From: Melioribacteraceae bacterium
GTDB lineage: Bacteria; Bacteroidota; Ignavibacteria; Ignavibacteriales; Melioribacteraceae
DNA: 64,000 bases
Reading direction: 5' to 3'
Assembly (NCBI GenBank): GCA_021739765.1
Contig: JAIPBD010000004.1
Coordinates: 186,001 to 250,000 of the forward strand
A model generated the notes under the pieces. The model was not told the origin of the DNA. It did no database searches and worked only from the letters and a program-made list of their open reading frames with translations. Below, one piece after another: positions 19,004-47,550 of this stretch. Numbering within the stretch: the stretch's first letter is position 1; every line of letters starts with the position of its first letter. A program made the translations under genes and the position numbers.

Positions 19004-19052
19004 GAGTCGGAACGACAGGATTTGAACCTGCGACCACTTGACCCCCAGTCAA
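19004..19052. repeat. Left attachment-site repeat (3' half of tRNA-Pro)
   Basis: This 49-base stretch is identical to 47502-47550. It covers the tRNA-Pro gene from the anticodon stem to the 3' end plus a few flanking bases. The sequence beyond 19052 does not continue as a tRNA, so it is an attachment-site duplicate rather than a gene. Confidence 0.92.
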
Positions 19053-21738: not shown

Positions 21739-22326
21739 ATGAAAGTTGCTATTTATTCACGAGTCTCCACAAAAGACAAAGGACAAGACACTCAAAATCA
21801 AATCCTCCAACTTAAAAAGTATTGCAAATCACGGAATTTCACTATTTACCACATCTATGAAGATTACGAATCTGGTGCAAAAGGTCGGAAAGAAAGAGAG
21901 TCCTTTAATCAACTCTTCAAAGATGCAAGACAGCATAAATTTTCAATGGTTCTTTTTTGGAGTCTGGATCGATTTACCAGAGAAGGGATCTTCAAAACAA
22001 TGATCTATTTGAAACAACTTGATGAATATGGCATAAAATTTCACTCATACAGTGAAGAATATCTGACAACGGATAATGAACTTGTGTCCCAAATTCTATT
22101 ATCTGTAATGAGCTATTTCGCCAAACTTGAGAGAGAAAAAATATCTGAAAGGACTAAAGCTGGAATTGAGCGCGCGAGAGCAAAAGGTAAACAGATTGGT
22201 AGACCCAAAAAAGATAAATTGAGATTAGAGATCACTGAAATGCGAAAATCATTGTCTGTCAGACAAGTAGCAACGAAGCTGAGAATATCACCCAATACTG
22301 TTCAGAAGTATTCTCAGATTAATTGA
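21739..22326 (+). CDS. Small serine recombinase (resolvase/invertase family)
   Basis: The N-terminal catalytic domain opens with AIYSRVSTKDKGQDTQNQ, placing the nucleophile at Ser10. It continues with YEDYESGAKGRKERESF, FWSLDRFTREG and the long E helix (FAKLEREKISERTKAGIERARAKGKQIGRP). A short HTH closes the protein (LSVRQVATKLRISPNTVQKYSQ). At 195 residues it is full length for a Tn3-resolvase/DNA-invertase enzyme. It ends 11 bases from the convergent helicase gene. Its target could be resolution or inversion of sequence in the island; I found no obvious inverted crossover sites beside it. Confidence 0.9.
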   Translation: MKVAIYSRVSTKDKGQDTQNQILQLKKYCKSRNFTIYHIYEDYESGAKGRKERESFNQLFKDARQHKFSMVLFWSLDRFTREGIFKTMIYLKQLDEYGIKFHSYSEEYLTTDNELVSQILLSVMSYFAKLEREKISERTKAGIERARAKGKQIGRPKKDKLRLEITEMRKSLSVRQVATKLRISPNTVQKYSQIN

Positions 22327-22337: not shown

Positions 22338-25300
22338 CTATTCATGCAAAAATCCTTCGAACCCAACTAAATATATATACCCCATTTCTTGTGCCTCATG
22401 ATCCCAATCATTTGAATAATTCGTATTATTAATTTCATCATATACTACTGAATCTGAATAATAATATCTTACTACGTTGCTACAAAACAGTCCTTTGAGA
22501 ATTAAACCTGGATCCGGTGTAAATTTTGTCGCAATAAATTCATTAAAATTATTAGACATCTTAAATAGTTTGTGAGATGCGTGAGTTAGAAACCAACCAT
22601 TGTCAAACTCGATCTCAAGATTGTCACTTTGAATGACTTCATCGTTTATATACTTCAAATAGGCTTTTCTTGAAACAAATCCCAACCAATGACATTTTTC
22701 ATCAGAGACACCTGATGATATGATTATAGATCCAAGTCTATTAGGACATAATAATCCATTCTGCGGAAATTTTGAGGTGTCTAATTCAAATGAAGTGTTT
22801 GAATCAAGTGCTCTTTCCCGTTCAGACCGATAAATAATAAGTTTATTTTTGGCTCTTGAAGTGGCCACATACAGGAGCCTTCTCTCTTCATCAAAAAACT
22901 GAGGGTCTTTCTCTTTAAAAGGCAATTCAACAATACTGAATGGTAAAATCACAGAATCAAATTCAAGTCCTTTAGACTTATGTATAGTCGACAATATGAT
23001 TCTTGTATTATCTGAATTCGACAACTGTTGCATTTGTACTAATTTATATAGGCCGGCATCGTCCACATCACGAATTTCATCAAAATAATTCAGTAGGTCG
23101 CCCACAGTTATTGAACCAACGCTGGATGCCTTAAACTCCTCAATGAGAGATTTAAATACTTCAAAGGTTCGTGGATTCCATTTTGAATACTTTTTAAGAA
23201 TCCTTTCAATTGTAGCTTCAAAAATGTTATTATAAAATTCATCAAAAGATTTTCCACTATGCTTTCGAATTTGATCTACTAAAATTGATATCTCTCTAAG
23301 TTTGAAAAAATTTGTTGAACTGCCTTGAATAATAATTTCATGATTTTTAAGTGATTCATTTTTAAGCAGCAGAGAATTAAAATAGTACAACTCTGAATTT
23401 GTTCTGAATAGAACAGCACAATCTTGGTATTTCTCGACATTGCTTTTTGTCTCATTAATTAATTTAATTAGTCGATTTACAATTGACTCGTAATCAAAAT
23501 CTGATATTTCTATTTTTTCAAGTGATTGAGGGTTTTTAGATTTATCCAATCCCACTAAAATTTCTGTATTCATTCTGTCTTCATTCTTATCAATAATTCT
23601 ACTCACTTCTGAAATAATCTCTTCAGTAGATCGATAATTCATATTTAGATACATTTTTTTTGCATCATTCTGCTGAATAAATTTCTGAAAGTATGGAACA
23701 GCAGAAATATCCGCACTATGTAATTTTCTCTCATAGCCGTAAATACTTTGATCAGGATCTCCGATAACCATTGTGGGTTTTTTAGAATTAATGTGATTAA
23801 GCATATCAAGTCGTTCTTTTGATATATCCTGATATTCATCGACAAAAAAGTATTGAGGATTTTGTAATCTGTTTGAGATTATTCCAGCGTGTTCAGCGTA
23901 GTCATTATTAAATGTTTCAATCCATTTATTTACATCTATATCTTTGACTAAATCATGTAAACAGTACTTTACAAGACTATGAAAAGTATGAATTTTTATA
24001 CCTCGGGCTAAGTTTCCATATCCAAGCTTTCTCAGAAGAGAATTGATTCTATGCTTTAGTTCATTAACTATTGCACGATTATAAGCAAGAACAAGAATCT
24101 TCTCTGGTTTAACATTAAATTCGTGTATTAATCGTACGATACACATAATCAATGTATGAGTCTTCCCTGTGCCGGGACCTGCTATAACAGATAAACTATT
24201 ATTGGGATCCGATTTATATATTTCCAATTGTTTTTCATTTAAGCCCCCAATTTTAGTATTAGTTTTCTCATCGTATACACCTTCTACTTCTTTATTCAGA
24301 GCTTCCTGTCTTAACTCCGATAAAATATGATTAACATTGTCTGCTTTTGGTACGAAATTTTCAAAAAGAGCAAGGATGTTTTTTGAATTATCGCATTCAA
24401 AATATTCTGTTATAAATTGGGTTCTGTCTTCATTTGATTGGAGATTAGCGAATATTTCTAATGAATAAATTCTGAGTTTTTTAAGATAATTGTATTCATT
24501 AAAAATTTGATTGACCTTATAATCATCACCTTCTCCACTTTCAGAATCTATTGGTTCAAAGTTTGTAAACTGAACTTCTATTCCCATATGAAGTAAAGGA
24601 GAGTTAAAATTAATATAACCTATTCCTTTAAGAAAAAGTAAAGAGCTTTCTAAATATTCTAAAGATAGATCGGGGGTATTCAGACTTAGCAGTTCATCGA
24701 ATACATTAAACTCACGATTTTGTTTAAATAAATTATATATTCGCTGTAATAGAGACAATGAATACATGCTAAATTGATCAAGTTCCTCACTGACAAATTG
24801 ATTGTCTTTTGAGATAATAAGGATTTTTTCTTGGTCAAGAACTTTTTGATTAATATGTATACCCTGGAAAGAATTAATAAGACTTATTAGACTCTTTATT
24901 CTGTAACCTCCTCCAAATGATCTTCTAAATTTTTCTTCATTTTTTAGAAAATATTCTTCGGTAAGCCAACTAAAATTTTCTTGTGTTATAAATTCTTTGA
25001 AAGTTTTCTCAAGAAGTTCATTTATATCATTTTCATTTATTTCAATCTTTTCATCTAATGCGGCAGCTTTGATAAGCGAACTAACAATTTTCAAATACGC
25101 TTCCAAGTAGATGTATCTTGAGTTTCTATTTTCTTCGGCTACCTGCATTTCCTTTGTTCTTTGCTCTGTTATTTTAATCCTAATCGATTGAGCCATCTTA
25201 ATCATTTTTTTATCATGCATTCTCGCCAGTAGACCAAATAGTTTATCATATGATCCCGTGGATGTATGATTCAACAACTCGACAATTGGTACAATCGTTA

Positions 25301-26165
25301 TCATCGAATCCGCAAAATTATTCTTTCGATAATTTTCTATAATGTCTAAAACTATCTTCTCATTTGTATTTTTTTCTGTTTCGGGGATTTCAATTGATTC
25401 GAATTCAAGATGAACAGGAAGATAATTCAGTAGTTTAACTCGCTGCAAAGTTTCAAGCCAATGCAGAGACATACGTAGAAGATTTGCCTTATCATTACTA
25501 TCTCTGAAGTCCTCCAATTTACCCAAGAAATTATTACTTACAGGTAAAATAGAATTGATTGGTTTGACAAGATTAAATTGATCCAAAAGATTATTGAAAA
25601 TTAATACAATGTCATCCCACCTAATAGTGCTGCGATGGATAAGATCTCGTTTTCTTTTAAAACTTTTCTCATTTGCAAAGAAATAGCAATTAATAGGATT
25701 GTTTAATGAAAATCCTGCATCCTCGAGACACTTAGCATCTCGACCTGCCCTGCCAACTTCTTGTAAATAGTCTTCAAGTGATGAGGGTGGATCGAAATGG
25801 AAAATATAATGTATGTTTGGAATGTCCATTCCCATCCCAAATGCTTTGGTAGCACTTAAAATTGATATTTCACCCCTCAAGAACTCCTGATATGTGTTAT
25901 TTCTCTCTTCTCCCGACATGCCCGCATGGAAAGGAGCAATACTAATTTCTTTATTTACTTCTGTTAATAACTCAGCAATTTGTTCGGTTTTTTTTCTTGA
26001 GGAACAAAATATTATTGCTCTACTTTTCTCAATATCAAAGTTTTCATTTAGTATCATTACAATACTTGAAATTTTTTCGCTATCATCCCCAGCAGATAAC
26101 GGGAATATCTCAAGATGTTCTCTAATTGGATTATAGTTTAGTAGATCTTCGAACCTTTCAATCAT
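22338..26165 (-). CDS. RecQ-type helicase C-lobe fused to UvrD-type SF1 helicase
   Basis: This 1275-residue protein begins with only the second RecA lobe of a RecQ-like SF2 helicase: SRAIIFCSSRKKTEQIAELL, SATKAFGMGMDIPN and EVGRAGRDA (about residues 45-150). No SF2 Walker A is present; that lobe is encoded by the preceding gene. A middle region without recognised domain lacks RecQ zinc-binding cysteines. From about residue 645 a complete SF1 helicase follows: AGPGTGKT (about 663), VDEYQDIS, GDPDQSIYGYE, NYRSTEEI, STIHKSKGLEFDSV and YVATSRAKNKLII. ATG 26165 has AGGAG eight bases upstream and overlaps the previous stop (ATGATTGA). Confidence 0.85.
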   Translation of the reverse strand: MIERFEDLLNYNPIREHLEIFPLSAGDDSEKISSIVMILNENFDIEKSRAIIFCSSRKKTEQIAELLTEVNKEISIAPFHAGMSGEERNNTYQEFLRGEISILSATKAFGMGMDIPNIHYIFHFDPPSSLEDYLQEVGRAGRDAKCLEDAGFSLNNPINCYFFANEKSFKRKRDLIHRSTIRWDDIVLIFNNLLDQFNLVKPINSILPVSNNFLGKLEDFRDSNDKANLLRMSLHWLETLQRVKLLNYLPVHLEFESIEIPETEKNTNEKIVLDIIENYRKNNFADSMITIVPIVELLNHTSTGSYDKLFGLLARMHDKKMIKMAQSIRIKITEQRTKEMQVAEENRNSRYIYLEAYLKIVSSLIKAAALDEKIEINENDINELLEKTFKEFITQENFSWLTEEYFLKNEEKFRRSFGGGYRIKSLISLINSFQGIHINQKVLDQEKILIISKDNQFVSEELDQFSMYSLSLLQRIYNLFKQNREFNVFDELLSLNTPDLSLEYLESSLLFLKGIGYINFNSPLLHMGIEVQFTNFEPIDSESGEGDDYKVNQIFNEYNYLKKLRIYSLEIFANLQSNEDRTQFITEYFECDNSKNILALFENFVPKADNVNHILSELRQEALNKEVEGVYDEKTNTKIGGLNEKQLEIYKSDPNNSLSVIAGPGTGKTHTLIMCIVRLIHEFNVKPEKILVLAYNRAIVNELKHRINSLLRKLGYGNLARGIKIHTFHSLVKYCLHDLVKDIDVNKWIETFNNDYAEHAGIISNRLQNPQYFFVDEYQDISKERLDMLNHINSKKPTMVIGDPDQSIYGYERKLHSADISAVPYFQKFIQQNDAKKMYLNMNYRSTEEIISEVSRIIDKNEDRMNTEILVGLDKSKNPQSLEKIEISDFDYESIVNRLIKLINETKSNVEKYQDCAVLFRTNSELYYFNSLLLKNESLKNHEIIIQGSSTNFFKLREISILVDQIRKHSGKSFDEFYNNIFEATIERILKKYSKWNPRTFEVFKSLIEEFKASSVGSITVGDLLNYFDEIRDVDDAGLYKLVQMQQLSNSDNTRIILSTIHKSKGLEFDSVILPFSIVELPFKEKDPQFFDEERRLLYVATSRAKNKLIIYRSERERALDSNTSFELDTSKFPQNGLLCPNRLGSIIISSGVSDEKCHWLGFVSRKAYLKYINDEVIQSDNLEIEFDNGWFLTHASHKLFKMSNNFNEFIATKFTPDPGLILKGLFCSNVVRYYYSDSVVYDEINNTNYSNDWDHEAQEMGYIYLVGFEGFLHE

Positions 26166-29100
26166 CAAATATTCTCCTCAAATCTTCGAAGACTTGATTA
26201 GTCACTGTAGCCGACATAAACAATACTTTAGCATTGTAGCCCTCCTTAATTTTATTCGCCACATATTTGGCTGCATATAGATAGTCCGGTCTAAAATCTA
26301 ACCCCCATTGGGAAATACAGTGAGCCTCATCAAAAATCCAATACTCCGGACCATCGTCGTTCAAGAGCCGGAATTCAAAGTTCTTTATAAATTTTCTTGA
26401 CCTAAATCGCTCTGGAGAAGTGTAAAGTAATTTTATATCTCCATTAGAAAACCTTCTGTAAATATCGTTTATTTCGAACCTCGAAAGATCTCCAGTCGGA
26501 GAATCAACTGAGTTATAAAAACCAGCATTAATGAGATTTTGTACTTGGTCAATCATAAGAGCCTTCAGGGGTGAAATCACTACGGAAAATTTACCCGATA
26601 TTTCTCCTTTTAATAATGCAGGACCTTGGAATAGAATTGATTTGCCACCTCCAGTAGGTAGGCTGACCAGTATGCTGTTTGAATCTTTACTTAAAATTGA
26701 CTTTAAATATCTTTCCTGAATTTCAGTCAAACTTCCGTTAGCACCATTTAGCCCTTTTGACTTTAAGAATGTTGATTCAATTGTTTTCTTCATCGTATCA
26801 AAATCATATTCCAATTCAGGTTTATTGTTATTAAATAATGCATCGATTTTTCGTTTTCTTTCTAAAAAAACTGACTTATCGTCCCAAATTTTTAGATCCA
26901 CTGTGTTTTGATTAATATGCTTTAATTCTTCTGATAAATTGTTTTCAAGTAGATAAATTGTATTCAGATGCTTCGATTGCAAAATTAAATGCGATAATAT
27001 CAAAAAGGTATCGATCTGATCTTCTTCCAACTTCGATGTGGGTTTAACAAAATTTCGAGGTTGAGTTTCAGTCAATTCCTCTTCATTTTCAGGTTGATCA
27101 AATGAATCATTTTCAACATCTTCATTATCGCTTGGATTTTCGATTAACTCTTTATCAACATCATTTAAAATCCTTGTTGCTTCACATTGAACTGTTTGAA
27201 AAATAAATATCATTTTAACAGTAGATGATTTTAAAATACTGACGATATCCTTCCTTGTTGTAAGCATAAGAGTAGTATGAAGTATATCAATCCTAAAAGT
27301 TGATAATTCTTGTGGTTCTGTAAATACAGTATAGCCGAGAGTTTGAAAAATTTTGGATACAATTTTTGTTTCTGAATCTTCGTTTAACACAATAATAGGC
27401 AAGAATTCTGGTCCCCCGGGGTGATTAGCGAAGATCAACTCAATCACCAATGAATTATATGACCAGTAGTGCGATCTATATTTTGAACTGTTTGATAACG
27501 CAAAAAGATCTTGACCATCTTCTCGAGATTTATCAAACAATAGGTTAGGAACAGTGACCGAATGATTTTTATTACTAATGAAATAATGACTAAAAGGAAT
27601 TTCTTCGGTCATTCGAAAAATTTTATCACTTTCAACTTTCACATAGAAATAAAATACATTATCAATTTTCCTAGCATAAACACTTGAAAAGTCTAATATA
27701 CTTTTCGATTCAACGATAAGTGGTAAAGTAGATACCGAAATTGGTGATTTGTTATTTACTGATCTTATTAAAGCAAATTTTTCATCCTCCGATAGGGATT
27801 CTAAAAGCAATTCTGATTTTAAAGAACCTAAATTTAGAACATCCTCTGACAGCATTTTTTTCGAAAGAAAGAATATATTTATTTCCTCTTTGAGAATATT
27901 TAGCTTTTCATATATAATTGACCTATAAGTGAATATATCCATGAAGATAGTATTCACATTTTCAGAAAATTCATTTTCAATACTTTCAATACTAAGTGGA
28001 ATAGTTGGACCAGAAAATAAATCTCTTTCAATTTTGAAATTCATTCTAATAAATGGCGGAATTAAAGAAAGTGATTTACCAATATTTTCAACCTCCAATT
28101 CGTGTGAGAAATTTTTAAAAAAAGTGAAGAGAAAATCTGATTCTGTGATTTGTTCGACTGGGATTTTAGAAGAATTATAATAGGTGAAATACTTTGTGGC
28201 TATTCTTGAATTTGGAATATGATTGAAATTACTCAATAAGCATGTGGGAATAATTATTAAATTTTTACGCCCTCTATTAGTGAAATCAAGTTCTAAAAGT
28301 TCTGCATTGTTGTTTTTTTTAAAAAATTTATGAGATTGTTCCCTAAATTTTTCTAAAACAGAATCATCCACGTTTTCAAAAAAACGAAAATATTCTTCAC
28401 ATAAGTCTGAAAATACTTTGTTCCTTCCTAAATAATCAAATGAGAGTTCCTTAGAACAAAGAATTCGCATTATCTGTGAAATAAATAGTTTTTTGGCAAG
28501 TAATACGTCACTCTCCGCAGTATGGGCTGAATTTAGGGCATAAGATTGCTTAATTGGTTCCAGTAGACATTCAACCAAAATTGTATCCCATACATTATTT
28601 ACATCTATATTATAGAGTCCGAACTCAGCAAGAATCGGCAAATCCCATTTTAAAATATTGTGTCCGATAAAAACATATTCTGAGTAATCTTTACTCAATT
28701 GCTGTATCAGCTCCTCCGATTTCGATTTATCTAAATTCTTAGTGGTCTTGAGTTCACCATGTGCGATATAAGAAATTTCATGGATTATTTTACCGTTTGA
28801 CTCGATATCAATGAAGACATAGTCCTTTTTGTCTATTATCGGCTCAATTTGATTCAGGTAATACTTATTTGCATAATTGGAATCGATATGATTTAAAAGA
28901 TCTATAAGGGCTGTGTTTACATTAAAATCTTGCTCGTGAAATTTTTCTAAAAATACTTTTTTAATTTCTGGATTAATCCGAATTAATTTGACGAGCTCAT
29001 CTAAAACATCAAGTGATACTAACTGTTGAAAGATGTATTCAGTTAGTTCTGTTAAAAAAAACGGATTCAGAATTCCATTAGACAAATTATCAAATGGCGC

Positions 29101-29595
29101 TATGAAACTATTTAATTCCTCAATCCCCGTAATCCAGTACTCATCTCCTAATCCAGATTGGGTTATTGTTTTCGAATAAGACACAGAATAAAACCGCCTC
29201 GGTTTTAATTTTCTATTTACTGAGCATCGAAAGAGGTTGACGCTATTCGGCGAAATAAATTTTTTACCGTCATAAAATAATAGCCCATTTAGTGTTGTAT
29301 TATATATCTGTATGTCTACTGCTCTGCGTTTTTCGTCCTCATCAGCAACTTCAAATGACAATTGGGGAATTTTGGAAGGGATAAGAGAAACATCCTTAAT
29401 TTGTCTAAAGTCTATTAGTTTCTTAACATCCTCAGGCATATCATTGATATGGAAAAATATAGGATCTTGATCTTCCACTAAAAACCCAAAACCACGAGTA
29501 ATATCGGGCTTATATTGACGATTGAAATTTCTTCTGGAGATTTCTACTTGGTCTACTAATAATATACGTTGAGCAATTCGCATTCTATCATCCAA
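26158..29595 (-). CDS. DEDDh exonuclease fused to RecQ-type helicase N-lobe
   Basis: The N-terminal 250 residues are unassigned. Residues about 256-362 form a DEDDh 3'-5' exonuclease domain: FIDIESNG (D-x-E), GHNILKWDLPIL (HN and D) and HTAESD (H-x-A-x2-D). A long middle region with an acidic linker (about 820-860) leads to the first RecA lobe of a RecQ-like helicase: SLPTGGGKS (about 983), ISPLKALMIDQ, TSPERFRS, DEAHCISQWGLDFRPDY (about 1088) and SATVTNQ. The protein then stops, exactly before the second lobe, which opens the next gene. Exonuclease plus RecQ recalls WRN. Start TTG 29595 overlaps the upstream stop; ATG 29583 is the alternative. Confidence 0.82.
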   Translation of the reverse strand: MDDRMRIAQRILLVDQVEISRRNFNRQYKPDITRGFGFLVEDQDPIFFHINDMPEDVKKLIDFRQIKDVSLIPSKIPQLSFEVADEDEKRRAVDIQIYNTTLNGLLFYDGKKFISPNSVNLFRCSVNRKLKPRRFYSVSYSKTITQSGLGDEYWITGIEELNSFIAPFDNLSNGILNPFFLTELTEYIFQQLVSLDVLDELVKLIRINPEIKKVFLEKFHEQDFNVNTALIDLLNHIDSNYANKYYLNQIEPIIDKKDYVFIDIESNGKIIHEISYIAHGELKTTKNLDKSKSEELIQQLSKDYSEYVFIGHNILKWDLPILAEFGLYNIDVNNVWDTILVECLLEPIKQSYALNSAHTAESDVLLAKKLFISQIMRILCSKELSFDYLGRNKVFSDLCEEYFRFFENVDDSVLEKFREQSHKFFKKNNNAELLELDFTNRGRKNLIIIPTCLLSNFNHIPNSRIATKYFTYYNSSKIPVEQITESDFLFTFFKNFSHELEVENIGKSLSLIPPFIRMNFKIERDLFSGPTIPLSIESIENEFSENVNTIFMDIFTYRSIIYEKLNILKEEINIFFLSKKMLSEDVLNLGSLKSELLLESLSEDEKFALIRSVNNKSPISVSTLPLIVESKSILDFSSVYARKIDNVFYFYVKVESDKIFRMTEEIPFSHYFISNKNHSVTVPNLLFDKSREDGQDLFALSNSSKYRSHYWSYNSLVIELIFANHPGGPEFLPIIVLNEDSETKIVSKIFQTLGYTVFTEPQELSTFRIDILHTTLMLTTRKDIVSILKSSTVKMIFIFQTVQCEATRILNDVDKELIENPSDNEDVENDSFDQPENEEELTETQPRNFVKPTSKLEEDQIDTFLILSHLILQSKHLNTIYLLENNLSEELKHINQNTVDLKIWDDKSVFLERKRKIDALFNNNKPELEYDFDTMKKTIESTFLKSKGLNGANGSLTEIQERYLKSILSKDSNSILVSLPTGGGKSILFQGPALLKGEISGKFSVVISPLKALMIDQVQNLINAGFYNSVDSPTGDLSRFEINDIYRRFSNGDIKLLYTSPERFRSRKFIKNFEFRLLNDDGPEYWIFDEAHCISQWGLDFRPDYLYAAKYVANKIKEGYNAKVLFMSATVTNQVFEDLRRIFDD

Positions 29596-31213
29596 AATTT
29601 ATAATAAATAGTTTATGCTTAGCTCGAGATGCAGCAACATACATCTGGTAATCCGTTCCGTGATTTATATGATTTATGATTATCAATGCGTCTGCTTCCA
29701 ATCCTTTGAATCGATTTATTGTATCATATATAATTTCATTACTTCTTGGAGGACTTGTTGAATATTTTCGATGCATTCTACCTTGAATCATCCTCATTTT
29801 ATAAGGATCTTCATCGCTAAAATTATGAATTATTGAGAAGTTCTTTGATGTTAGCTTATATTCATCTCTGAGCCGAGTGAGCAATATCTTAATGATTTCG
29901 TCAAGTTTCTCAAATGTTGTAGCTGTAAAGAGTTCGACATCCTCACCATCGTAGTTTTCCTCAAATTCAAGAATCTCCACTTTGCCATATTTTTTGACTA
30001 CTTGATTAATATTCTTTGTGTTTCTGCAATTCTCATCCAAAGGGATAATCGTTGAACTTATCGGGAGCTTAATTAGTGTATTCCTCACGTTCTGATTTGG
30101 GTCAAAAAAGATATAAAAATAGCTGTCTTCTACCATCAATAGCTTTATGAATTCCCACCATTCCGAATTAAAATCCTGTGCTTCATCAACCAAAATTGCG
30201 GAGTAGGAATACTTCTTTAGATCGCACTCCATCAAAGTATAAACTATCTCATTTTCCCAAAAATCCTGGTTTGGATTTTCAGGCCATTTTTGTGGATTAC
30301 TTTCGGTGATAATTTTTCTTGCTAAACTATGGAATGTAAATACATCGACATTTTCCAATTGAGATTTAAGATAATCAGCCAAATTGTTGTTATAACACAA
30401 TAACAGTGTTTTGGTACCATTCTCAGCTAATTCCCTCGCCTTAATTGATGCAATAATTGTTTTACCAGTTCCGGCAAATCCTTCAATTACTGCTCTTTTA
30501 TTTCTCTTTGACATTTTATCGAAGACGTTCTTCTGTTTCTCCGTCAACCTGACAAACACTTCCTCTTCATCTTTTAATGATACTTTGAAACTACGGTGTA
30601 ATTGAAATATTGGAGCCAAAACCTTATCTCTTATCAGCTCCAACTTATCTCGTGTAATCATTGCGGAAGAGGTATTTTTACGTGCCCAATAGTGATAAAT
30701 GGATCCCAATTTTGATTCGAGATTGTCCAAGTCATTCGAATCAACTATTATCTCTCGGGAATAGTTGGGCGGCATTACGAGCAGGTTAAATTCCACACCT
30801 GGGAACACTGCAACATTACCATATGTAAAATTTATATGCTCGCGTGAGATATATATACCATTGTTGATAAGATTATCAATCAGCGCATGCATATTTTTTC
30901 TACCCTGTGCCATGGGTTCGCTTTTTAACTTATGCTTATTTCCAAATTCATCGGTGGAGTACATCGTGTTGGTATGTCCATCGTAATCAATTTCTTTTCC
31001 ACCCTTTACTTCTAAGACTAATATTCCCAACTCAGGATGTAAAATTATAAAATCTGCTTCACCCTGTTGTAATGTTCCCTTGATATTACTAATAAACTCT
31101 ACACTATGGAAGACCCAATATTCATCAGATAATTGTTCTTTAAGTTTACGAAGAAACTTTCTTTCAGATTGGGGTCCCGAAATATTTTTTACATTTGGAT
31201 AGATTATTGCCAT
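29588..31213 (-). CDS. NERD nuclease-related domain fused to SF1 helicase
   Basis: The N-terminus (about residues 8-125) is a NERD domain: GEADFIILHPELGILVLEVKGG supplies the D...E-x-K pattern of nuclease folds. From about residue 225 an SF1 helicase of the UvrD/DUF2075 type follows, with GFAGTGKT (about 245), LCYNNNLADYL, VDEAQDFNSEWW, ENCRNTKNI, INRFKGLEADALII and YVAASRAKHKL. The ATG has GGGAGC a few bases upstream. The stop overlaps the exonuclease-RecQ gene start by eight bases, so this protein is made in register with the split RecQ pair and likely works with it. Comparable NERD-helicases occur in phage-defence contexts. Confidence 0.85.
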   Translation of the reverse strand: MAIIYPNVKNISGPQSERKFLRKLKEQLSDEYWVFHSVEFISNIKGTLQQGEADFIILHPELGILVLEVKGGKEIDYDGHTNTMYSTDEFGNKHKLKSEPMAQGRKNMHALIDNLINNGIYISREHINFTYGNVAVFPGVEFNLLVMPPNYSREIIVDSNDLDNLESKLGSIYHYWARKNTSSAMITRDKLELIRDKVLAPIFQLHRSFKVSLKDEEEVFVRLTEKQKNVFDKMSKRNKRAVIEGFAGTGKTIIASIKARELAENGTKTLLLCYNNNLADYLKSQLENVDVFTFHSLARKIITESNPQKWPENPNQDFWENEIVYTLMECDLKKYSYSAILVDEAQDFNSEWWEFIKLLMVEDSYFYIFFDPNQNVRNTLIKLPISSTIIPLDENCRNTKNINQVVKKYGKVEILEFEENYDGEDVELFTATTFEKLDEIIKILLTRLRDEYKLTSKNFSIIHNFSDEDPYKMRMIQGRMHRKYSTSPPRSNEIIYDTINRFKGLEADALIIINHINHGTDYQMYVAASRAKHKLFIINFG

Positions 31214-31278: not shown

Positions 31279-31830
31279 CTAATTTATTGGTATATCTCCA
31301 TTCAACCTTTTATCGGCCATATAGAGTATTCGATCGGAATCCATAAATGGAATATCCTTTGCTTCGCAAAAAACTTTTAAATCGATCAAATAAGTCAAAT
31401 ATTTATTGATGTTATTTTGAATTTTGAGAGGTGTCGAATTATCATTAACGTAAAGTTTATTTCCCATGAGTATTCTATAAACCCTACGATCAACGATCTG
31501 ATAAATATTGGGATTTTTAAATCTCAATATTGTTGATGCCATTGGGAGATTAATCCCATCTGAAGTAAGAAGAGCAGAAAGCACTTTTTCAGATTGTTTT
31601 ACATCAATTTTTCGTTTACTTCGTGAAATTTCATTAACAAGTTTAATCGTATCCTCTTTTAGAGCTGGGAAACGGTTTAGTTTCCAAAGTACGATCTCAT
31701 TTATAATATCCGCATTATAGTCACCAGAATAAGTGTCAAGATTCTTCGTCAAATCAGGCTGATATTCATATTTTTTGTCGCTTTCGGTTAGCTTGAATTC
31801 TTCGCTACTTATTGTAATCAGTTTTGCCAT
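31279..31830 (-). CDS. HhH DNA-glycosylase-like protein
   Basis: The 183-residue product contains GINLPMASTILRFKNPNIYQIVDRRVYRIL-type sequence (key part GINLPMASTILRF, about residues 93-105), resembling the helix-hairpin-helix segment of endonuclease III/AlkA-like proteins (GVGxxxAxxIL), followed by the conserved YxIxDxRV region. It is smaller than a typical glycosylase, no catalytic Lys is evident, and the four-Cys Fe-S motif is absent. It lies 65 bases upstream of the NERD-helicase gene on the same strand, so it is probably part of that module, perhaps as its DNA-recognition component. Confidence 0.5.
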   Translation of the reverse strand: MAKLITISSEEFKLTESDKKYEYQPDLTKNLDTYSGDYNADIINEIVLWKLNRFPALKEDTIKLVNEISRSKRKIDVKQSEKVLSALLTSDGINLPMASTILRFKNPNIYQIVDRRVYRILMGNKLYVNDNSTPLKIQNNINKYLTYLIDLKVFCEAKDIPFMDSDRILYMADKRLNGDIPIN

Positions 31831-31845
31831 TAATAAGTTACCGGT

Positions 31846-32514
31846 TTAATTTAAGATCTCAATTTCATCAATCATCCAAATTTTACTTTTGCCGACAACT
31901 TCATGCACAACAATTCGAGAGGCAATTTTTATTTTTTGGGCTAATTTCAGCTGATCTGAGAGTTTTGACGCAATAATCACTTTATACTCTCTATATTCAT
32001 TCGAATAATGATCTTGAACAAGCAAATGCATTTCGTTAAACTCTTCTTTCCCAAGAATTCCAAGCAGTTTTGTAGCAATATCAGATTTTGGCATATCAAA
32101 TCTTTTAAAAAAGTTTATCTTTCTGTCAATATTAGTAATTTCACCCACAACTGTAGCTGAATCATTCCCAGGTGTAACTTGGATGCGAAATGGTGCATTC
32201 TTACCATGTTTGAGAAAATGTTCGATTGTTGCTAATTGCTTCGAATCGAATTCGAGATCTTTCTCCCTTGCATGAGCTTTCAAATCATTAAGAATTTGAT
32301 CATTGACAGTTCCATAAACATCAATAAGTTGTTCTATAATTGATGTTGTTTCCGTAGTGAGACAACTGTGCAATGGCCAAGGTGGTCCAAGATCATCGAA
32401 AAACACTTTTGATCCACATGAGCAGAAGAAATAGAAAACTTCCTCCCCACAATATTTACATTTAAGTGGAAATGCTCGAGTACTACATGATGAACTATGT
32501 GTTGGAATGGGCAA
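31846..32514 (-). CDS. Zinc-ribbon protein with OB-like C-terminus
   Basis: The N-terminus MPIPTHSSSCSTRAFPLKC continues into CKYCGEEVFYFFCSCGSKVFFDDLGPPWPLHSC, with Cys and His residues spaced for one zinc ribbon or two half-sites. This leader looks familiar from uncharacterised defence-neighbourhood proteins, but I cannot name the family. Residues about 105-222 are beta-rich (GEITNIDRK, IKIASRIVVHEVVGKSKIWMIDEIEIL), compatible with an OB-type nucleic-acid-binding fold. The start is TTG, supported by AAGGAG eight bases upstream and by the conserved leader. The gene ends 15 bases before the HhH gene. Confidence 0.6.
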   Translation of the reverse strand: MPIPTHSSSCSTRAFPLKCKYCGEEVFYFFCSCGSKVFFDDLGPPWPLHSCLTTETTSIIEQLIDVYGTVNDQILNDLKAHAREKDLEFDSKQLATIEHFLKHGKNAPFRIQVTPGNDSATVVGEITNIDRKINFFKRFDMPKSDIATKLLGILGKEEFNEMHLLVQDHYSNEYREYKVIIASKLSDQLKLAQKIKIASRIVVHEVVGKSKIWMIDEIEILN

Positions 32515-32537
32515 GTCTAAACTCCTTACTTAAATTT

Positions 32538-32999
32538 CTATGGTTTGCTTCCCGGATGAATTTGTTTGCTCCGCGATTTTCGAAATCTATAAATCTCTGT
32601 AAAAAAAATTGATCTGTAAATTAATTGTCTTTGTTTCGCATTCATCAAATTTGCAAAGGTTAGTCGGAATTTTTCAATTGTATTGATGGATTTGGTTAAT
32701 TCCGCACAACCAAAACAACTCGTCATTTCTGATTCAGTTTTATCAATTTTTTGTAATTCACTATTCTCTCTAAAAATCCACTTATATTGGTTTATATCTT
32801 CCACTAAATAACTTTGCATTGGAATTTTGAAAATTGTTCTAATAAATCTATTGTCACCTATTGTTTTAGACTTAATTTTATCGATATCAAATTTTAGCTT
32901 CCATTTTGGAATGTCTGATTTATTAATCTGTCGCAACAGACCAATTTTCAGATCCATTACTATCCCATAATCCGGTTTAAAATTGGTATTGACTTTCAT
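32538..32999 (-). CDS. Uncharacterised island protein
   Basis: I do not recognise this product of about 153 residues. It is Lys/Ile-rich with alternating strands in the first half (FKPDYGIVMDLKIGLLRQ), a CFGCAEL segment in the middle and a basic Arg/Lys-rich C-terminus (YRFRKSRSKQIHPGSKP). The frame can be extended six codons upstream to a TTG at 33017; ATG 32999 is the simpler start. It lies between the two-TM gene and the zinc-ribbon gene with short gaps (23 bases downstream), so it belongs to the same train. Confidence 0.45.
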   Translation of the reverse strand: MKVNTNFKPDYGIVMDLKIGLLRQINKSDIPKWKLKFDIDKIKSKTIGDNRFIRTIFKIPMQSYLVEDINQYKWIFRENSELQKIDKTESEMTSCFGCAELTKSINTIEKFRLTFANLMNAKQRQLIYRSIFFTEIYRFRKSRSKQIHPGSKP

Positions 33000-33052
33000 A
33001 TTCAAATCCACATTCAAATTAAACCCGATACACTGCGTAATTATTTAATTGC

Positions 33053-33919
33053 CTACCATACTTCTGAATGGTTTTCATAATCAACTATCATCAGGTCTAT
33101 CTTTCCTCTCAGATAATCAAAACGATCATACATGTAAACTGGTTCACCACTAAAAGCCAGCATAGAATTAAAGAAATCAGCAAAGAAACTAAGTTTTTTA
33201 AGTATTTTATATATTGCTTCAAACTTGTCTGGATCAAAAGAATCAATATGCGCACTAATTAAAATAGGAATCGATTCATCAAGTCTTTCATCGATCAAAG
33301 AATTTAATTCGCCAAACGGTGCAAAATGAATTTTATTTAAGAACAAATCGATCTCTTTAATATCCAAATGTCTTAGCTGTTCCTTATTTGAGAAATAACT
33401 TCCTATTTCGGCTAAAGTTCGTATTCCCTTATTTTTGAACTCTTTTTTTATTTTACCGCTGAACTCTTCAGGATTGGTCGAGTAGGCAAGATTATAGATC
33501 ATAACAGTATAATTTTTGATATTGGCATGCTTATTTGAGGGAAATTGTGTAAATACTTGACGATTTAGCATGAAATTTACAAACTCTTCCTTGTGTTTAT
33601 AAAAATTATTAAACCGATTATTTGAAACAATTGAGTCGATCTGTTTTTCGGTCTGCTTCATTCTTTCAATCGTAAGCCAAAGACCAAATAGAACCGCACC
33701 TGCTGTAAGTAGTTTTACTGGGAAATCAAATAGATCAAAGAAAAATGTAAAACCTTCTTGGGAGAAATCAAGTTGGATCTGCGAAAATTTATCAACAATG
33801 ATGAAGAAGAAGAATATCACTGTGCTTAGAAGTGAAAGCATCCATAATATTTTTAGAATATAACTATAATTCTTAAGTTCTTCCTCTGTATTTGATTTTG
33901 TAAATAATCTGAGTTTCAC
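33053..33919 (-). CDS. Two-TM membrane protein with cytoplasmic domain (copy B)
   Basis: Two hydrophobic segments (about residues 24-44 and 64-86) precede a conserved junction: FPVKLLTAGAVLFGLWLTIERMKQT, then SNNRFNNFYKHKEEF (about residues 100-114). The remaining 170 residues look cytoplasmic and alpha-helical. The junction is shared nearly word for word with the protein at 36883-37761, while the C-terminal parts diverge, so the two are paralogues with different tails. The start is GTG, with AAGAG just upstream. It begins five bases after the DUF6161 gene. Two-TM proteins near defence genes are often membrane-acting effectors; that role is inferred. Confidence 0.7.
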   Translation of the reverse strand: MKLRLFTKSNTEEELKNYSYILKILWMLSLLSTVIFFFFIIVDKFSQIQLDFSQEGFTFFFDLFDFPVKLLTAGAVLFGLWLTIERMKQTEKQIDSIVSNNRFNNFYKHKEEFVNFMLNRQVFTQFPSNKHANIKNYTVMIYNLAYSTNPEEFSGKIKKEFKNKGIRTLAEIGSYFSNKEQLRHLDIKEIDLFLNKIHFAPFGELNSLIDERLDESIPILISAHIDSFDPDKFEAIYKILKKLSFFADFFNSMLAFSGEPVYMYDRFDYLRGKIDLMIVDYENHSEVW

Positions 33920-33924
33920 TTCTC

Positions 33925-35151
33925 TTACCTGGTATTGGCACTTTCCATTACTTTAGAAACCAATGGATTAATAAAAGGCATCTGTGGTGTTCCATCCCCT
34001 TTTATTAAGCCTGTGTCTGCACGTGCGAATAGTGCTTGAAGTACAATTTCCCTTTCAGATGGTTCAACAGCCCCATCTTTGAGTAATGATAAGTATAAAT
34101 AGGTTAGTTGACGACGTTCATCCGCATCTCTTGATAGATGATATGCACTTGTTGCTAAACGAATAAATGTATATATGAGATAGGAAAATGTTGATGCAAT
34201 AATGGTGAAAATAATTATTCCCTTCACTTGATCTAAACCAATATTTCCTTTCATCCATTCTGGGAAAAACCATAATGAAATTACAAGAAAAATGACAAAT
34301 ATTGCAGAAACCCAAATTGCCAAATGAACCCATTTCTTGCCTTTTTCTTCATAATTAGTCTTTAATGCTTTCCAATATTGAGCTGGTTTTTGGAGTTTTA
34401 GCAAATCATCATAGGCGTTTGCTAAATCTGTTTTTTCTTCTTCCCAAACTTTAAGTTTCGTATTAAACACATTTTCAAAGCCTGGTAAATGTGTGTCAGT
34501 ATATTCTTTTTCAATTACTTCGATCTTTTTCTGTAAATCTTGTTTTGCTTTAACTAACTGATCTAATTCAGATTCCGATTTCTGATTATATTTAGTTAAG
34601 TTATTTTGAAAATCTGTTTTTAGTTTATTTAAAATCCTAAAGTCATTTACTTCAATATCCTCCGAAATCGGATACAAAAATCTCATTGCATCGAGTAGAC
34701 CTTGAAATTTTTCATGCGAATTGAAACTTGGGATATTTAGCTGATTTTGTACAATAATTACATAAGCAATTGAGGATCGATTTGGATTTTTTTCATACAA
34801 ATCAGTTAGATATGTGGCTAATTCGGAGTCAGAAAATAATATATTCGATGAATTATTTATGTGCTGATTAAGTTTTTGTATCTGATTCATCAAAGAAGGT
34901 TCGTTATCCATTTTCTTAATTAAATCAATTATCCCATTTACTTGATTATAGAAATTATAAATATTCCTTATTCTATCATGTTGGTATTTTTCCCAATACT
35001 CGACCTCATTATGAATGAATTTTGAGAATTCGTCAAATTTACTGAAATGTTTATCGTTACTTGCATGTGTCGAGGATAGATTAATTCCATGCTCATAGGC
35101 GGACTTTAATACTTCCTCTCTCCTCACCTCAAAACTATTCTCTTCACCCAT
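33925..35151 (-). CDS. DUF6161-type membrane protein
   Basis: The 408-residue protein has a soluble N-terminal region with coiled-coil-prone helices (about residues 170-260). Two TM segments follow (about 277-296 and 311-331), then the conserved C-terminal stretch SAYHLSRDADERRQLTYLYLSLLKDGA and IVLQALFARADTGLIKGDGTPQMP. I associate that stretch with DUF6161 proteins, whose biochemical role is unknown. It lies between the EVE-like gene and two-TM copy B, with only five bases to the latter, so a membrane-associated pair is plausible. Confidence 0.65.
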   Translation of the reverse strand: MGEENSFEVRREEVLKSAYEHGINLSSTHASNDKHFSKFDEFSKFIHNEVEYWEKYQHDRIRNIYNFYNQVNGIIDLIKKMDNEPSLMNQIQKLNQHINNSSNILFSDSELATYLTDLYEKNPNRSSIAYVIIVQNQLNIPSFNSHEKFQGLLDAMRFLYPISEDIEVNDFRILNKLKTDFQNNLTKYNQKSESELDQLVKAKQDLQKKIEVIEKEYTDTHLPGFENVFNTKLKVWEEEKTDLANAYDDLLKLQKPAQYWKALKTNYEEKGKKWVHLAIWVSAIFVIFLVISLWFFPEWMKGNIGLDQVKGIIIFTIIASTFSYLIYTFIRLATSAYHLSRDADERRQLTYLYLSLLKDGAVEPSEREIVLQALFARADTGLIKGDGTPQMPFINPLVSKVMESANTR

Positions 35152-37778: not shown

Positions 37779-39431
37779 TTAACTCGCCAACTTACTTACC
37801 ACCGCCTCAACCAACTTCTCTTGCTCTTCTGTCTTTAACTTAATTTTATCCTCAAGCTTTTTACATAAACTCATGAACTGGTCAACTTTTTTGACAATTT
37901 GCTTTTGTTCAAGTATTGGTGGAAGCGCAATTTTCGAAACATTTAGTTTTGCTAAAGTTACTCTCGTAATTGCTACTCCGGTCATACTACCTCTGGTTTG
38001 GGCGTAATAGTAGGGTGATCTTAGATTAAGGAGAATATATTTTTCAATAATAAATGATGATGTTTTTATTAAAGCAACACTGGATAACATGCTAAACTCT
38101 TCTTTTAGGTTATTTAGTGTTGCCACACCTGTAGTTGCCCCATCCTTGATATATAGGATGTCACCGTATTCTGGATTGCACCTTTCATAAATAGCCCTAT
38201 GAACTTGCGCCTCAACGAAGGTTATTTTTTTCGGAACTACACCTTCTAACTTTATATCTTTAGCTGATATATATTTAAAGTCACCTTTAGAATGATTAGG
38301 TGGCGAATTATGAGTACCATCAGTAATTTTAGTAGAAATATCTTGTAGACTCACCCACTCCCATCCATCCGGTAAACTAAACGGTTTTTCCTCTTCTGTG
38401 ATTGCAGGCAATTCCTTCCCACCACGGCGGGCAGGCTGCTTTTTAATTTTCCCTTCAGCGATTAGTTTTTCTTTTTCTGCTTTTATATTTTTCAAGAGTT
38501 CTGATGCTGGTTCTACATCCGGGTTTTCTTTTCGCCATTGTTCGGTTAGTTTGCCTTGAACTGCGAGTTGAAGTATTGTCTGTTTAAGTTTGTTTACATT
38601 TTCCGGCACTGAGTAAAGTATTTCAAAGTTTTGGGTGATTCTGTTCCAGTTTAGTTGAAATTCTTTTTCATTTTGGGATTTGGTGAGTTTGTCTAATGCT
38701 GAGTTGCTAAGTTTAATTCTATTTGCTTCTTTGCGGTTTTTCTTCTCTTCCAGTTCATCCAACAAAGACATTAAGCTGTTTACTTTTTTTACTATTTCGT
38801 GCTGTTCTTGAAGTGGGGGAAGCAAAATATTGTTCTCTAAAAGCGATTTAAAGTGTCTTGCGTAACCCTTTGATACTATTCTAATACTTTTTAATGCCCA
38901 GTAAAAATACTTCGCATTAATAGGATTTATTGGTAATAGAAGCTTGGTCCCATCAGCACCGGGGATAAAATCAAAATCGACAAACTTTATCTCTCGAGTA
39001 TGGTCACCGAAAACTATGAGAGGGCTCTGAATCTTAATTAGTTTACTATCATTATCAGAATAAGCTGTAATCTTTTCGATTCCTTGACCGACTACTGGAT
39101 ATTTTCCTGTATTTTTATATTCATTTGTTTTAATCTGATGTTTTTTTATCGAAATCGAATAAAACAACTTTCTAAGTGGTAAAATTCTCCATTCCGGCTT
39201 CCATGGAATACGTGAAACCGAATTCAGTGAATACTGGTTATTAATGCATCTCCTTCTTACCAAAGATGAAATTTCACTATTCAGAGCAAAAATTAATTTG
39301 TCAATAGAATCTTCCTTTTTTGTTTCTGTCAGCTTACCCTGAACTGCGAGTTGCAAAACCAATTCACGGGCTTTTGTTATTCCATTTGGGGCATCAATTA
39401 TTTTTTCGAAGTTCTGAAAGAGTAGATTCAT
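37779..39431 (-). CDS. hsdS: Type I restriction-modification specificity subunit
   Basis: HsdS chooses the bipartite DNA target of the HsdR2M2S complex. The 550-residue protein has the two-fold repeat of the family: two target-recognition domains (about residues 60-200 and 350-500) separated and closed by similar helical spacers (LPPLQEQHEIVKKVNSLMSLLDELEEK-type and LPPILEQKQIVKKVDQFMSLCKKLEDK-type sequence; key shared element EQxxIVKKV). Each TRD is preceded by a LVLQLAVQGKLTE / TILQLAVQGKLTE segment. Its ATG overlaps the hsdM stop (TAATG). Confidence 0.93.
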   Translation of the reverse strand: MNLLFQNFEKIIDAPNGITKARELVLQLAVQGKLTETKKEDSIDKLIFALNSEISSLVRRRCINNQYSLNSVSRIPWKPEWRILPLRKLFYSISIKKHQIKTNEYKNTGKYPVVGQGIEKITAYSDNDSKLIKIQSPLIVFGDHTREIKFVDFDFIPGADGTKLLLPINPINAKYFYWALKSIRIVSKGYARHFKSLLENNILLPPLQEQHEIVKKVNSLMSLLDELEEKKNRKEANRIKLSNSALDKLTKSQNEKEFQLNWNRITQNFEILYSVPENVNKLKQTILQLAVQGKLTEQWRKENPDVEPASELLKNIKAEKEKLIAEGKIKKQPARRGGKELPAITEEEKPFSLPDGWEWVSLQDISTKITDGTHNSPPNHSKGDFKYISAKDIKLEGVVPKKITFVEAQVHRAIYERCNPEYGDILYIKDGATTGVATLNNLKEEFSMLSSVALIKTSSFIIEKYILLNLRSPYYYAQTRGSMTGVAITRVTLAKLNVSKIALPPILEQKQIVKKVDQFMSLCKKLEDKIKLKTEEQEKLVEAVVSKLAS

Positions 39432-45248: not shown

Positions 45249-46217
45249 ATGAGTAAATCAAGTAAAAAAGCATATTGGAGTGGATATGTTCCCCCTTATG
45301 GATACCGTTATAATTCCGCGAATAAATCATTAGATATAGACCAGAATGAAAATGAAATACTATTGAGTATTTTTTCCTTGGCCCGAGCGAATAAATCTGC
45401 TTTAGAAATCGCTAAAGAATTGAATAGACACGGTATTAAGACAAGGCGAGGGAAAATGTGGAATTACACAACGATTTCAAATCTCCTGTCAAAAGACCGA
45501 ATTGCATTTGCCGCTGGAATCATAGATGATAAACCAGGGGCAAATTGGGAGCCCATCATTGATAAAAGTCAATATCATGATTTAAGAAAAATCGAGCTTT
45601 CTCGGGAAAAGTCAAAACATCACCGGAAACGAGATTCTCTACTAACCGGACAAAACATCCTAAAGTGCGGATATTGCGGAGGAGCTGTTAAATCGGCAAA
45701 AACAAAGAAAAATGTCGGTGAAATTTACTATTACCGATGTTCAGATAAGCAGATTCGCGGAGCCGATTACTGTCCTGAATCAAAACTAATTCAACAATCA
45801 AAAGTTGATGATATTGTAATTAATAACCTTTCCCAAATTTTAAATAATCCCCTCCTATTAAAACAACTAACAGAATATAATCGAAAAAGTACCGAACTGT
45901 TTACCAATCGGATGTCACAAATTCAGGATAAGATTACAAGCCTTTTGATGATTGAGAAAAACTTATTCACTAATAAAGAAATGGTAGATGAAGAAATCAA
46001 GTCGTTAAAAAAGGATAGAAAAAAGATAATCGATCAGATTGACTCCCTCCTATCTCCCGATGATATACCATTCAGAATTTCAAAAAAACAAATAAATATC
46101 AGTGTGATTAAAAAAACAATCTCCCGAATTGAGATATTTGAAAAATATGTTACGATTCACTTTAGCATACCTATTGATGAAAATCTCAAAACCACAGAGA
46201 ATTTCAACTATGGCTAA
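45249..46217 (+). CDS. Orphan DNA-binding half of a large serine recombinase
   Basis: The 322-residue product contains the Recombinase domain (VPPYGYRYN ... NEILLSIFSLARANKSALEIAKELNRHGIKTRRGKMW, in parts, about residues 13-100), a zinc-ribbon with CGYCGGAV and C...C spacing (about 135-175) and a coiled-coil (about 205-265). Those are the normal C-terminal parts of a large serine recombinase. The catalytic N-terminal domain with its Ser is missing, and nothing like it lies in the 200 bases upstream. ATG 45249 has GGAG six bases before it, so the gene is translated as such. Its stop overlaps the tyrosine integrase ATG by eight bases. Confidence 0.85.
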   Translation: MSKSSKKAYWSGYVPPYGYRYNSANKSLDIDQNENEILLSIFSLARANKSALEIAKELNRHGIKTRRGKMWNYTTISNLLSKDRIAFAAGIIDDKPGANWEPIIDKSQYHDLRKIELSREKSKHHRKRDSLLTGQNILKCGYCGGAVKSAKTKKNVGEIYYYRCSDKQIRGADYCPESKLIQQSKVDDIVINNLSQILNNPLLLKQLTEYNRKSTELFTNRMSQIQDKITSLLMIEKNLFTNKEMVDEEIKSLKKDRKKIIDQIDSLLSPDDIPFRISKKQINISVIKKTISRIEIFEKYVTIHFSIPIDENLKTTENFNYG

Positions 46218-47361
46218 TTGGTACGAAAGAGAAAACTCAAAGTACATTTGGATTCAGTATTATGACGCTGACGGTATGCAAGTTAGAGTTTCAACCAATA
46301 AGTATGTCCGAGTCAATGGAATTGTCATTCCACTCCTAAAAGGATTGAAAACCCACAGAAAGGAAGCACGTGAAATTTGTAAAGAAATTGAGGCGCAGAG
46401 GAAATTAAATTTATTCCAATCACGCTATACCTCCCAATACGGTGGGAGCAAAAATCTGAGTAGTGCATTCCAATCTTATCTTCAAACAAAAGGTTATCGA
46501 AAGAATGAGAAATTATCTGTGTCTTCGATTACTAATTGCAAAATTGCAGTAAGATATTTGATCAAAATAGCTGATGATAAACAAGTTTCCAAGTATACCG
46601 AATTCGATATGGAAAAATTTGAATTTTATCTTGATACGAAAGAACTTTCTCAAAACTCTCAGGCGATTTATTCACGTCATTTGAGAGCGATATTCAATTT
46701 TTTCATAAAACAAAAGTGGATTAAGGAGAATCCAATTTACGCCATCAGAGCTGAAAAAGTAAAACCAAGATCGATTCCTTTTGAAGATATGAATAGGATA
46801 TTTAAATATATAAAGAAACACCAACCCTATTTATTTTATTATAACTTATTTCTTCTTATGTCTGGGGTGCGATCAAATGAAGCACTTACCGTAAAAATCA
46901 GTGATATAGATTTTAATCTTAAATTCCTTCGGATCCAGAATCAAAAAGCTAAGAGACAAAATGAAATCATCCCACTTTACAAAGAATTTGGATTTTTTTT
47001 AAAGAGACTCATCGGAGAAAGGAATTCTGGATTATTATTTAATTACTATAAAAACTATGAAGGTTATCAATCCGCCTGGAGAAGATCAATGAAAGCGATT
47101 GAAAAAAATCTTAGAAAAGAAAAAAATGATGAGACAATTATATTTAAATATCAGATGAAGCAATTTCGAAAAACTTTTGCAACATATTTACTCGAAAGCG
47201 GTTTGAGTCCACACGATGTCCAGTCTTTACTTCGTCATACAGATGTAAGAATACTATTAGAACACTATGCTGAAGTTAAAATGAATCGGATCAGAGATGA
47301 AATAGATACTAAAGTGCAATTCTTCAATAAAATTCTGCCTTTCAACCTGGAAGATATTTAG
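46210..47361 (+). CDS. Tyrosine recombinase (island integrase)
   Basis: Residues about 90-180 form the SAM-like core-binding domain. The catalytic domain shows Arg in MSGVRSNEALT, then KQFRKTFATYLLESG (second Arg, with Lys where HxxR usually has His), LLRHTDVRILLEHYAEV (His, then the Tyr nucleophile). The N-terminal 80 residues are the probable arm-binding domain. ATG 46210 (MANWYERENSKYIW) is chosen because the longer frame from 46129 would lie wholly inside the previous gene. The gene ends 140 bases from the right repeat and points toward tRNA-Pro, as island integrases do. Confidence 0.92.
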   Translation: MANWYERENSKYIWIQYYDADGMQVRVSTNKYVRVNGIVIPLLKGLKTHRKEAREICKEIEAQRKLNLFQSRYTSQYGGSKNLSSAFQSYLQTKGYRKNEKLSVSSITNCKIAVRYLIKIADDKQVSKYTEFDMEKFEFYLDTKELSQNSQAIYSRHLRAIFNFFIKQKWIKENPIYAIRAEKVKPRSIPFEDMNRIFKYIKKHQPYLFYYNLFLLMSGVRSNEALTVKISDIDFNLKFLRIQNQKAKRQNEIIPLYKEFGFFLKRLIGERNSGLLFNYYKNYEGYQSAWRRSMKAIEKNLRKEKNDETIIFKYQMKQFRKTFATYLLESGLSPHDVQSLLRHTDVRILLEHYAEVKMNRIRDEIDTKVQFFNKILPFNLEDI

Positions 47362-47501: not shown

Positions 47502-47550
47502 GAGTCGGAACGACAGGATTTGAACCTGCGACCACTTGACCCCCAGTCAA
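47502..47550. repeat. Right attachment-site repeat (3' half of intact tRNA-Pro)
   Basis: Identical over 49 bases to 19004-19052. Here it continues into the 5' half of a complete tRNA, so this copy keeps the tRNA gene functional after integration. Confidence 0.92.

Follow-up and report, generated by a model that had tools for sequence, protein, structure and literature searches.

In a Melioribacteraceae bacterium, a three-gene helicase-nuclease module encodes a single RecQ-type motor in two adjacent genes, with the break falling between the two RecA lobes of the motor. The module lies at positions 22338 to 31213 of the window, that is the whole stretch of 64,000 nucleotides analysed here (GenBank assembly GCA_021739765.1, contig JAIPBD010000004.1, positions 186,001 to 250,000 of the forward strand; all positions below are those of the window), and its three open reading frames (ORFs) are all on the minus strand, where they follow each other in transcription as gene 0, gene 2 and gene 1. 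It has the look of an anti-virus defence of a kind not yet described, and we lean, with some reserve, towards reading it as a mobile defence machine for unwinding foreign DNA and breaking it down.

Gene 0 (29588..31213) encodes a 541-residue protein with a NERD, i.e. PD-(D/E)xK-type nuclease-related, domain and a superfamily 1 (SF1) helicase of UvrD/Schlafen-like type. Gene 2 (26158..29595) encodes 1145 residues from a TTG start and comprises a cold shock domain (CSD)-like motif, a helical region, a DEDDh exonuclease, a long middle region and RecQ RecA lobe 1. Gene 1 (22338..26168) gives 1276 residues from a TTG or 1275 from the ATG at 26165, the stretch 22338..26165 encoding RecQ RecA lobe 2, a linker, a UvrD-type SF1 helicase and a C-terminal domain. 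The three overlapping ORFs reported in an earlier note, made from the sequence of this stretch without database searches, are borne out at their coordinates; the Walker and other catalytic motifs sought in them are all present, and the ORFs are real, intact and correctly read. The 8-nt overlaps of that note hold if gene 2 begins at its TTG and gene 1 at its ATG, the first (29588..29595) combining the gene 0 stop with the gene 2 start and the second (26158..26165) the gene 2 stop with the gene 1 start, at the junction between RecA lobes 1 and 2. Pfam recovers NERD and UvrD-type SF1 in gene 0, DEAD (lobe 1) in gene 2, and Helicase_C (lobe 2) and UvrD in gene 1. The three proteins may form a single complex with fixed stoichiometry, as the earlier note drew from the overlaps. 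A promoter and terminator scan gave a result at chance level.

Since the two RecA lobes of a helicase bind and hydrolyse ATP between them, they normally belong to the same chain. In the window, the RecQ-type motor motifs are divided, with RecA1 GxGKS, DEAH and SAT in gene 2 (lobe 1, residues 928-1145, Pfam DEAD) and RecA2 QExGRxGR in gene 1 (lobe 2, residues ~9-170, Pfam Helicase_C). TIGR01389 and TIGR00614 match both lobes, each below the cut-off, being half a motor. The predicted models fit complementary stretches of solved RecQ, namely residues 71-273 (gene 2) and 278-552 (gene 1) of human RECQ1, and the alignment with BLM is complementary as well (648-848 and 854-1047). What had been labelled RecQ(N) and RecQ(C) are in other words complementary halves of a single motor, and genes 2 and 1 are evidently two halves of one RecQ-based protein.

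Among the 91 loci covered by domain mapping, lobe 1 and lobe 2 are in separate genes in 23, i.e. the window, L023, L024 and 20 loci from the genome scan, one spurious pair in L024 (one of 24 split pairs) having been dropped; L088, added by hand, is also split, its two genes being separated by a short gap instead of overlapping. While the RecQ family is defined by both lobes in one polypeptide, they are found in separate genes in the window, in 22 other loci and in L088. In the 23 split loci, the first gene stops 13-20 residues past motif III (SAT) and the overlap, counted with the ATG nearest the stop, is of 1 nt (3 loci), 4 nt (10), 8 nt (4), 11 nt (1), 14 nt (2), 17 nt (2) or 26 nt (1), a pattern suggestive of coupled translation. 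The frame relation of the second gene is of one kind in 10 loci and of the other kind in 13, and a programmed or conserved frameshift signal cannot explain the break because the second gene sits in two frame relations. Besides, the ratio of non-synonymous to synonymous substitution rates (dN/dS) in three close pairs is 0.12, 0.17 and 0.14 for gene 2 and 0.06, 0.09 and 0.08 for gene 1; one more pair was saturated and left out. The break is evidently a genuine split and not a frameshift.

Regarding the remainder of gene 2, the DEDDh exonuclease claimed by the earlier note occupies residues ~259-380 and stands on its five catalytic residues (D263, E265, D318, H358 and D363), which are invariant in 54 aligned sequences, while its profile match is weak (PADLOC DEDDh, E 8.5e-4); overall, catalytic residues do not vary in either of two alignments, of 54 and 45 sequences. 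The CSD-like motif, which that note had missed and for which the evidence is weak, lies at residues 33-60 with RGFGFL...IFFH at ~34-49, and a small profile built from relatives picked by the same motif matches this segment (E 7e-7; partly circular). The predicted model of gene 2 has a mean predicted local distance difference test (pLDDT) score of 69, with residues 1-50 and 60-151 below 50, and the middle region (~430-930) shows no firm fold, its pLDDT being mixed and in parts below 50. A Foldseek alignment of gene 2 with Staphylococcus aureus DinG (PDB 8zef), which we take to combine an exonuclease with a superfamily 2 (SF2) helicase, extends over 970 columns (E 7.9e-7, TMq 0.22, root mean square deviation 18.6), which hints at a possible origin of the middle region as a degenerate DinG-like domain. 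In gene 1, the UvrD-type SF1 helicase follows the linker at residues ~619-1123 (Pfam UvrD), and the predicted model (residues 1-1130) has a mean pLDDT of 83. The fold-search lists for both models are full of RecQ and UvrD rows, and the other parts were barely tested.

As whole gene 2 drew ordinary RecQ genes when used as a query in relatives, its RecQ-free parts were used instead, with which tblastn retrieved homologues on plasmids of two Hymenobacter and one Rhodobacter. In H. swuensis the break is at the same place as in the window, and the Rhodobacter copy has a chain of 1,774 residues that holds the two RecQ lobes together with the UvrD part, next to a separate gene for the CSD-DEDDh part. 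A scan of a genome collection, from which 80 of 105 relatives' loci were taken, and a scan of viral contigs, from which 7 were taken, extended the set. The commonest form in the domain mapping, and that of most relatives, is a single chain of ~2,400-3,100 residues, with the order N-terminal region, DEDDh, middle region, RecQ, linker, SF1 and C-terminal domain; those of Anaerobiospirillum are up to 4,008 residues long, and in these giant forms no DEDDh was detected with the queries used. One Anaerobiospirillum contig (L081/L104) carries giant helicase genes in tandem (3,545 and 3,802 residues). The Hymenobacter cellulosilyticus plasmid copy (L024, 10531-18557) is in several ORFs beyond the lobe split, through decay or sequencing errors. 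In a sample of 395 genomes of the phylum, the family is found in one, the window's own, with the linker profile and with the gene 2 query alike.

On an 83-row tree, which omits L024 and chains below 1,000 residues, the split label (23 rows) requires at least four changes. With 37 rows in the tree, the approximately unbiased (AU) test rejects a common clade of the split rows, with p 4.8e-5 for 13 split rows (without L088) and p 0.0029 for 12 split rows (without L088 and L076); this clade test left out 46 of the 83 tree rows, and the omitted rows L088 and L076 were picked after the first tree. Long branches (the window row and L076) and the quick LG+G4 model set bounds to this result. Several splits, or one early split followed by re-fusions, would both fit.

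The recurrence of all three genes together, envisaged in the earlier note, did not materialise, as the exact triplet was seen in no other locus; of its recurrence in defence islands, what stands is that the pair of gene 2 and gene 1 recurs, partly near defence genes, and not with gene 0 as a triplet. By clustering, 12 of the 82 other loci have a relative of gene 0 next to the core; in all 12, which are on Bacteroidales-type contigs, the core is fused and the partner lies 7-177 bp downstream of it, whereas the window partner is upstream. At the other split loci, no NERD-SF1 gene was found beside the pair in flanks of up to ~10 kb (L088 has no upstream flank). The triplet as a fixed unit is ruled out by the 12/82 linkage, the partner position and the fused cores there. 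Gene 0 itself matches Pfam NERD (5.3e-11) and UvrD-helicase (7.3e-11), carries the motifs EADF, LEVKGG, GFAGTGKT, DEAQD and YVAASRAK, and is matched over its whole length by PADLOC RTasNERD-Hel (E 4.8e-70). The partner in L061 has a Pfam NERD N-terminus and that in L059 is nearly identical there; eight others begin differently, with an N-terminus that is HEPN-like by eye only and without a Pfam match in the three scanned. Plasmid relatives of gene 0 amount to 53 records, and in the four inspected the gene follows a DUF3883 gene, follows a giant helicase, faces a convergent DUF1998 gene or precedes an AAA ATPase gene. Because of the RTasNERD-Hel match and these varied plasmid neighbours, gene 0 looks like an optional, portable effector or partner. 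In a Leisingera plasmid (L119, 2713-10740), a giant helicase gene of 2,094 residues is directly followed by a NERD-SF1 gene, the helicase being of DUF1998 type by eye only and not used as evidence; in a viral contig (L110, 5414-10721), a RecQ-like gene has a full-length relative of gene 0 immediately after it.

As a DNA-degrading defence machine, the module could work as follows. The gene 1 and gene 2 proteins are likely to pair, because the RecQ lobes are split between them, and their pairing through the lobes would rebuild an active RecQ ATPase in trans, joining the DEDDh 3'-5' exonuclease of gene 2 to the second, UvrD-type motor of gene 1. The resulting two-motor exonuclease-helicase would have a plan like WRN joined to a UvrD motor, WRN being an exonuclease plus RecQ, a plan known from eukaryotic genome maintenance. 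Such a machine might load on invader DNA at single-stranded DNA (ssDNA) tails, forks, ends or recombination intermediates, where the RecQ and UvrD motors would unwind and feed and DEDDh would digest the 3' strand, while the NERD-SF1 protein would add an endonuclease-helicase that cuts the strand displaced in this way. The two halves would be kept in proportion by coupled translation, and the two-part motor may make activation depend on assembly at the target. Tentatively, one may go further and see an immune family in which RecQ is split between its lobes, each carrying a different effector, with a hinge at which splits or re-fusions took place repeatedly and with assembly in trans arming the nuclease. 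A RecQ split exactly between the lobes and kept by selection in many genera would be a natural two-part motor, which could show how the lobes meet and whether a defence nuclease is held off until the motor assembles, and could be put to use directly as a split-helicase tool; should the module prove to stop phages, a WRN-like exonuclease-helicase would be added to bacterial immunity.

The defence reading is supported by defence-type neighbours, the mobile island described below, the sparse distribution, the conserved split and the invariant catalytic residues. Type I restriction-modification (RM) genes occur in 10 of 83 loci, window included, and hsdR starts 3 bp (L036), 5 bp (L033) and 34 bp (L063) past the module. 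Among the PADLOC matches listed for neighbours at E <= 1e-10 (25 of 249 families) are REase_I (4), Specificity_I (2), pAgo (2) and AbiEi (2), and a DrmD-like protein neighbours the H. swuensis copy; among the Pfam matches listed (25 of 108 families) are McrBC (2), S1 (5) and GIY-YIG (2). The neighbour scan was preceded by the skipping of 19 loci, window included, that were near copies or broken.

Several points weigh against it. The neighbour scan covered 135 of 214 candidates, its counts stand without a matched control as the intended control loci were too short, and 73 of the 83 loci have no type I RM match. The gene 0 relative adjoins the core only in the 12 loci given above, the pairing of the lobes in trans is something that we infer, and Pfam makes no call for the CSD-like motif of the window's gene 2, which is weak. 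As for the N-termini of relatives, 62 of 78 were scanned, and CSD was found in 18, S1 in 3 and IF2_N in 3, domains of a type for which RNA could be the target.

These N-termini bear on an RNA-directed or abortive action, in which oligonucleotide/oligosaccharide-binding (OB) folds (CSD, S1) and the Schlafen-like SF1 would read viral RNA or stalled transcription or translation and the nucleases would damage RNA or host nucleic acid, thereby stopping phage growth, a live rival, though one that we hold to be unlikely. It draws further on gene 0 or its relatives matching SLFN-g3 and Viral_helicase1, and on six of the 83 loci (L067, L069, L071, L077, L084 and L089) in which a small gene stands directly before the giant gene, 10-15 bp ahead or just overlapping, as if the OB-fold part were a separate gene, with a Pfam S1 domain in both small genes scanned on their own. 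Both core motors, however, belong to DNA-helicase families (RecQ and UvrD/PcrA), OB folds bind ssDNA too, and neither TBP nor TPR is among the Pfam matches listed for neighbours (25 of 108 families). TOTE-type systems pair OB folds with effectors, in line with an RNA-directed action (PMC12458937).

Island or plasmid maintenance, or competition between mobile elements through recombination intermediates or plasmid clearance, would dispense with a direct anti-phage role, and also weighs against defence, improbable as we consider it. The location in an integrative island, the plasmids of Hymenobacter and Rhodobacter and the conjugation genes near the H. cellulosilyticus copy speak for it; yet the scanned proteins of the window island gave no match to a conjugation or replication gene, part of the loci have defence-type neighbours, and hsdR is directly downstream in three. 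That the RecQ break is a frameshift error or a decaying pseudogene in the window is hardly credible, for while the H. cellulosilyticus copy, broken at several other places, shows that decay or errors occur in the family, it is refuted for the family by 23 loci that share the break, where start and stop are coupled in two frame relations, the motifs are intact and selection is purifying.

Set against known systems, the defence module as we read it is covered as a whole by no PADLOC or NCBIfam model, in agreement with the earlier note, which could match it to no named system, and no published description of the domain set or of a split helicase was found in the open-licence PubMed Central (PMC) literature. 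It differs from the WRN/RecQ family by the motor split over two genes and joined to a second, UvrD-type motor, by the CSD-like N-terminus and by the island location; from S. aureus DinG, despite the long Foldseek alignment with gene 2, by the low TM-score and the extra RecQ and UvrD motors; and from the two-motor helicase-nucleases AddAB, RecBCD and AdnAB by a first motor that is an SF2 RecQ, a nuclease of DEDDh or NERD type, and a locus other than a core repair locus. The likeness to the NERD helicase associated with defence-associated reverse transcriptases (DRT; RTasNERD-Hel) is the whole-length match of gene 0, and no reverse transcriptase was matched in the scanned window proteins, some small ORFs being outside the scan. 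With Gabija the likeness is that the UvrD part matches GajB (best 4.3e-46), which reads as general UvrD fold, and no GajA OLD-type nuclease is among the matches listed for the 20 scanned window proteins, these being the first 25 for one helicase and two RM proteins. The RecQ lobes match the PADLOC DpdF models of Dpd, while NCBIfam DpdF scores 53 and 98.5 bits versus a cut-off of 550, well short of a full DpdF. The kinds of domains shared with TOTE/TALON, which has a TPR-OB protein and a TBP protein along with an effector, are an OB fold (CSD), an RNase H-fold nuclease, NERD and a helicase (PMC12458937); no YprA helicase, TBP or TPR match was seen in the scanned window proteins.

The earlier note placed the module in a defence-rich island, and a mobile island carrying defence genes is confirmed, inserted at a tRNA-Pro with ends at 19004 and 47550 that the note had missed. 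The left attachment site (19004..19052, plus strand) exactly repeats 49 bp from the 3' part of the tRNA-Pro, and the right one (47502..47550, plus strand) lies in the tRNA-Pro(GGG) gene (47504-47578, minus strand), beside which a tyrosine (phage-type) integrase gene (46129..47361, plus strand; Pfam Phage_integrase 7.4e-19) is probably that of the island. Over its 28.5 kb the GC content is 0.328 versus 0.364 in both flanks. A flanking MerR gene is present in 55 of 59 genomes, the window's included, and the tRNA-Pro in 28 of 29 relatives' loci fetched; in 21 of these 29 the tRNA-Pro is followed (within ~0.2 kb in 20) by the GATase gene, from which the island separates it in the window, and these are evidently unoccupied sites. 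A direct repeat with the tRNA 3' part, an integrase and an unoccupied site in relatives, the marks of an integrative island, are all found. Seven more relatives have the tRNA-Pro without the GATase gene in a short stretch and may carry islands of their own; among the eight loci without the tRNA-GATase arrangement, some stop at contig ends.

Besides the module, the island carries a type I RM system on the same strand, with hsdS (37779-39431), hsdM (39431-40897) and hsdR (40911-43280), and an EVE-domain gene. The co-directional genes upstream of gene 0 (31279..35151, minus strand) are island cargo and encode proteins of 183, 222 and 159 residues without a match, a 2TM_IV-like protein of 288 residues and a DUF6161/AbiZ-like protein of 408 residues; the last two (33053-35151), in the same train, may be another defence pair. 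A serine resolvase gene lies at 21739-22326, and a serine recombinase gene at 45237-46217 overlaps the integrase ORF and looks incomplete, with Recombinase and zinc-ribbon parts only. In Zobellia (L032), a tRNA-Pro (13993-14067) lies 360 bp past the module, possibly the same kind of integration site.

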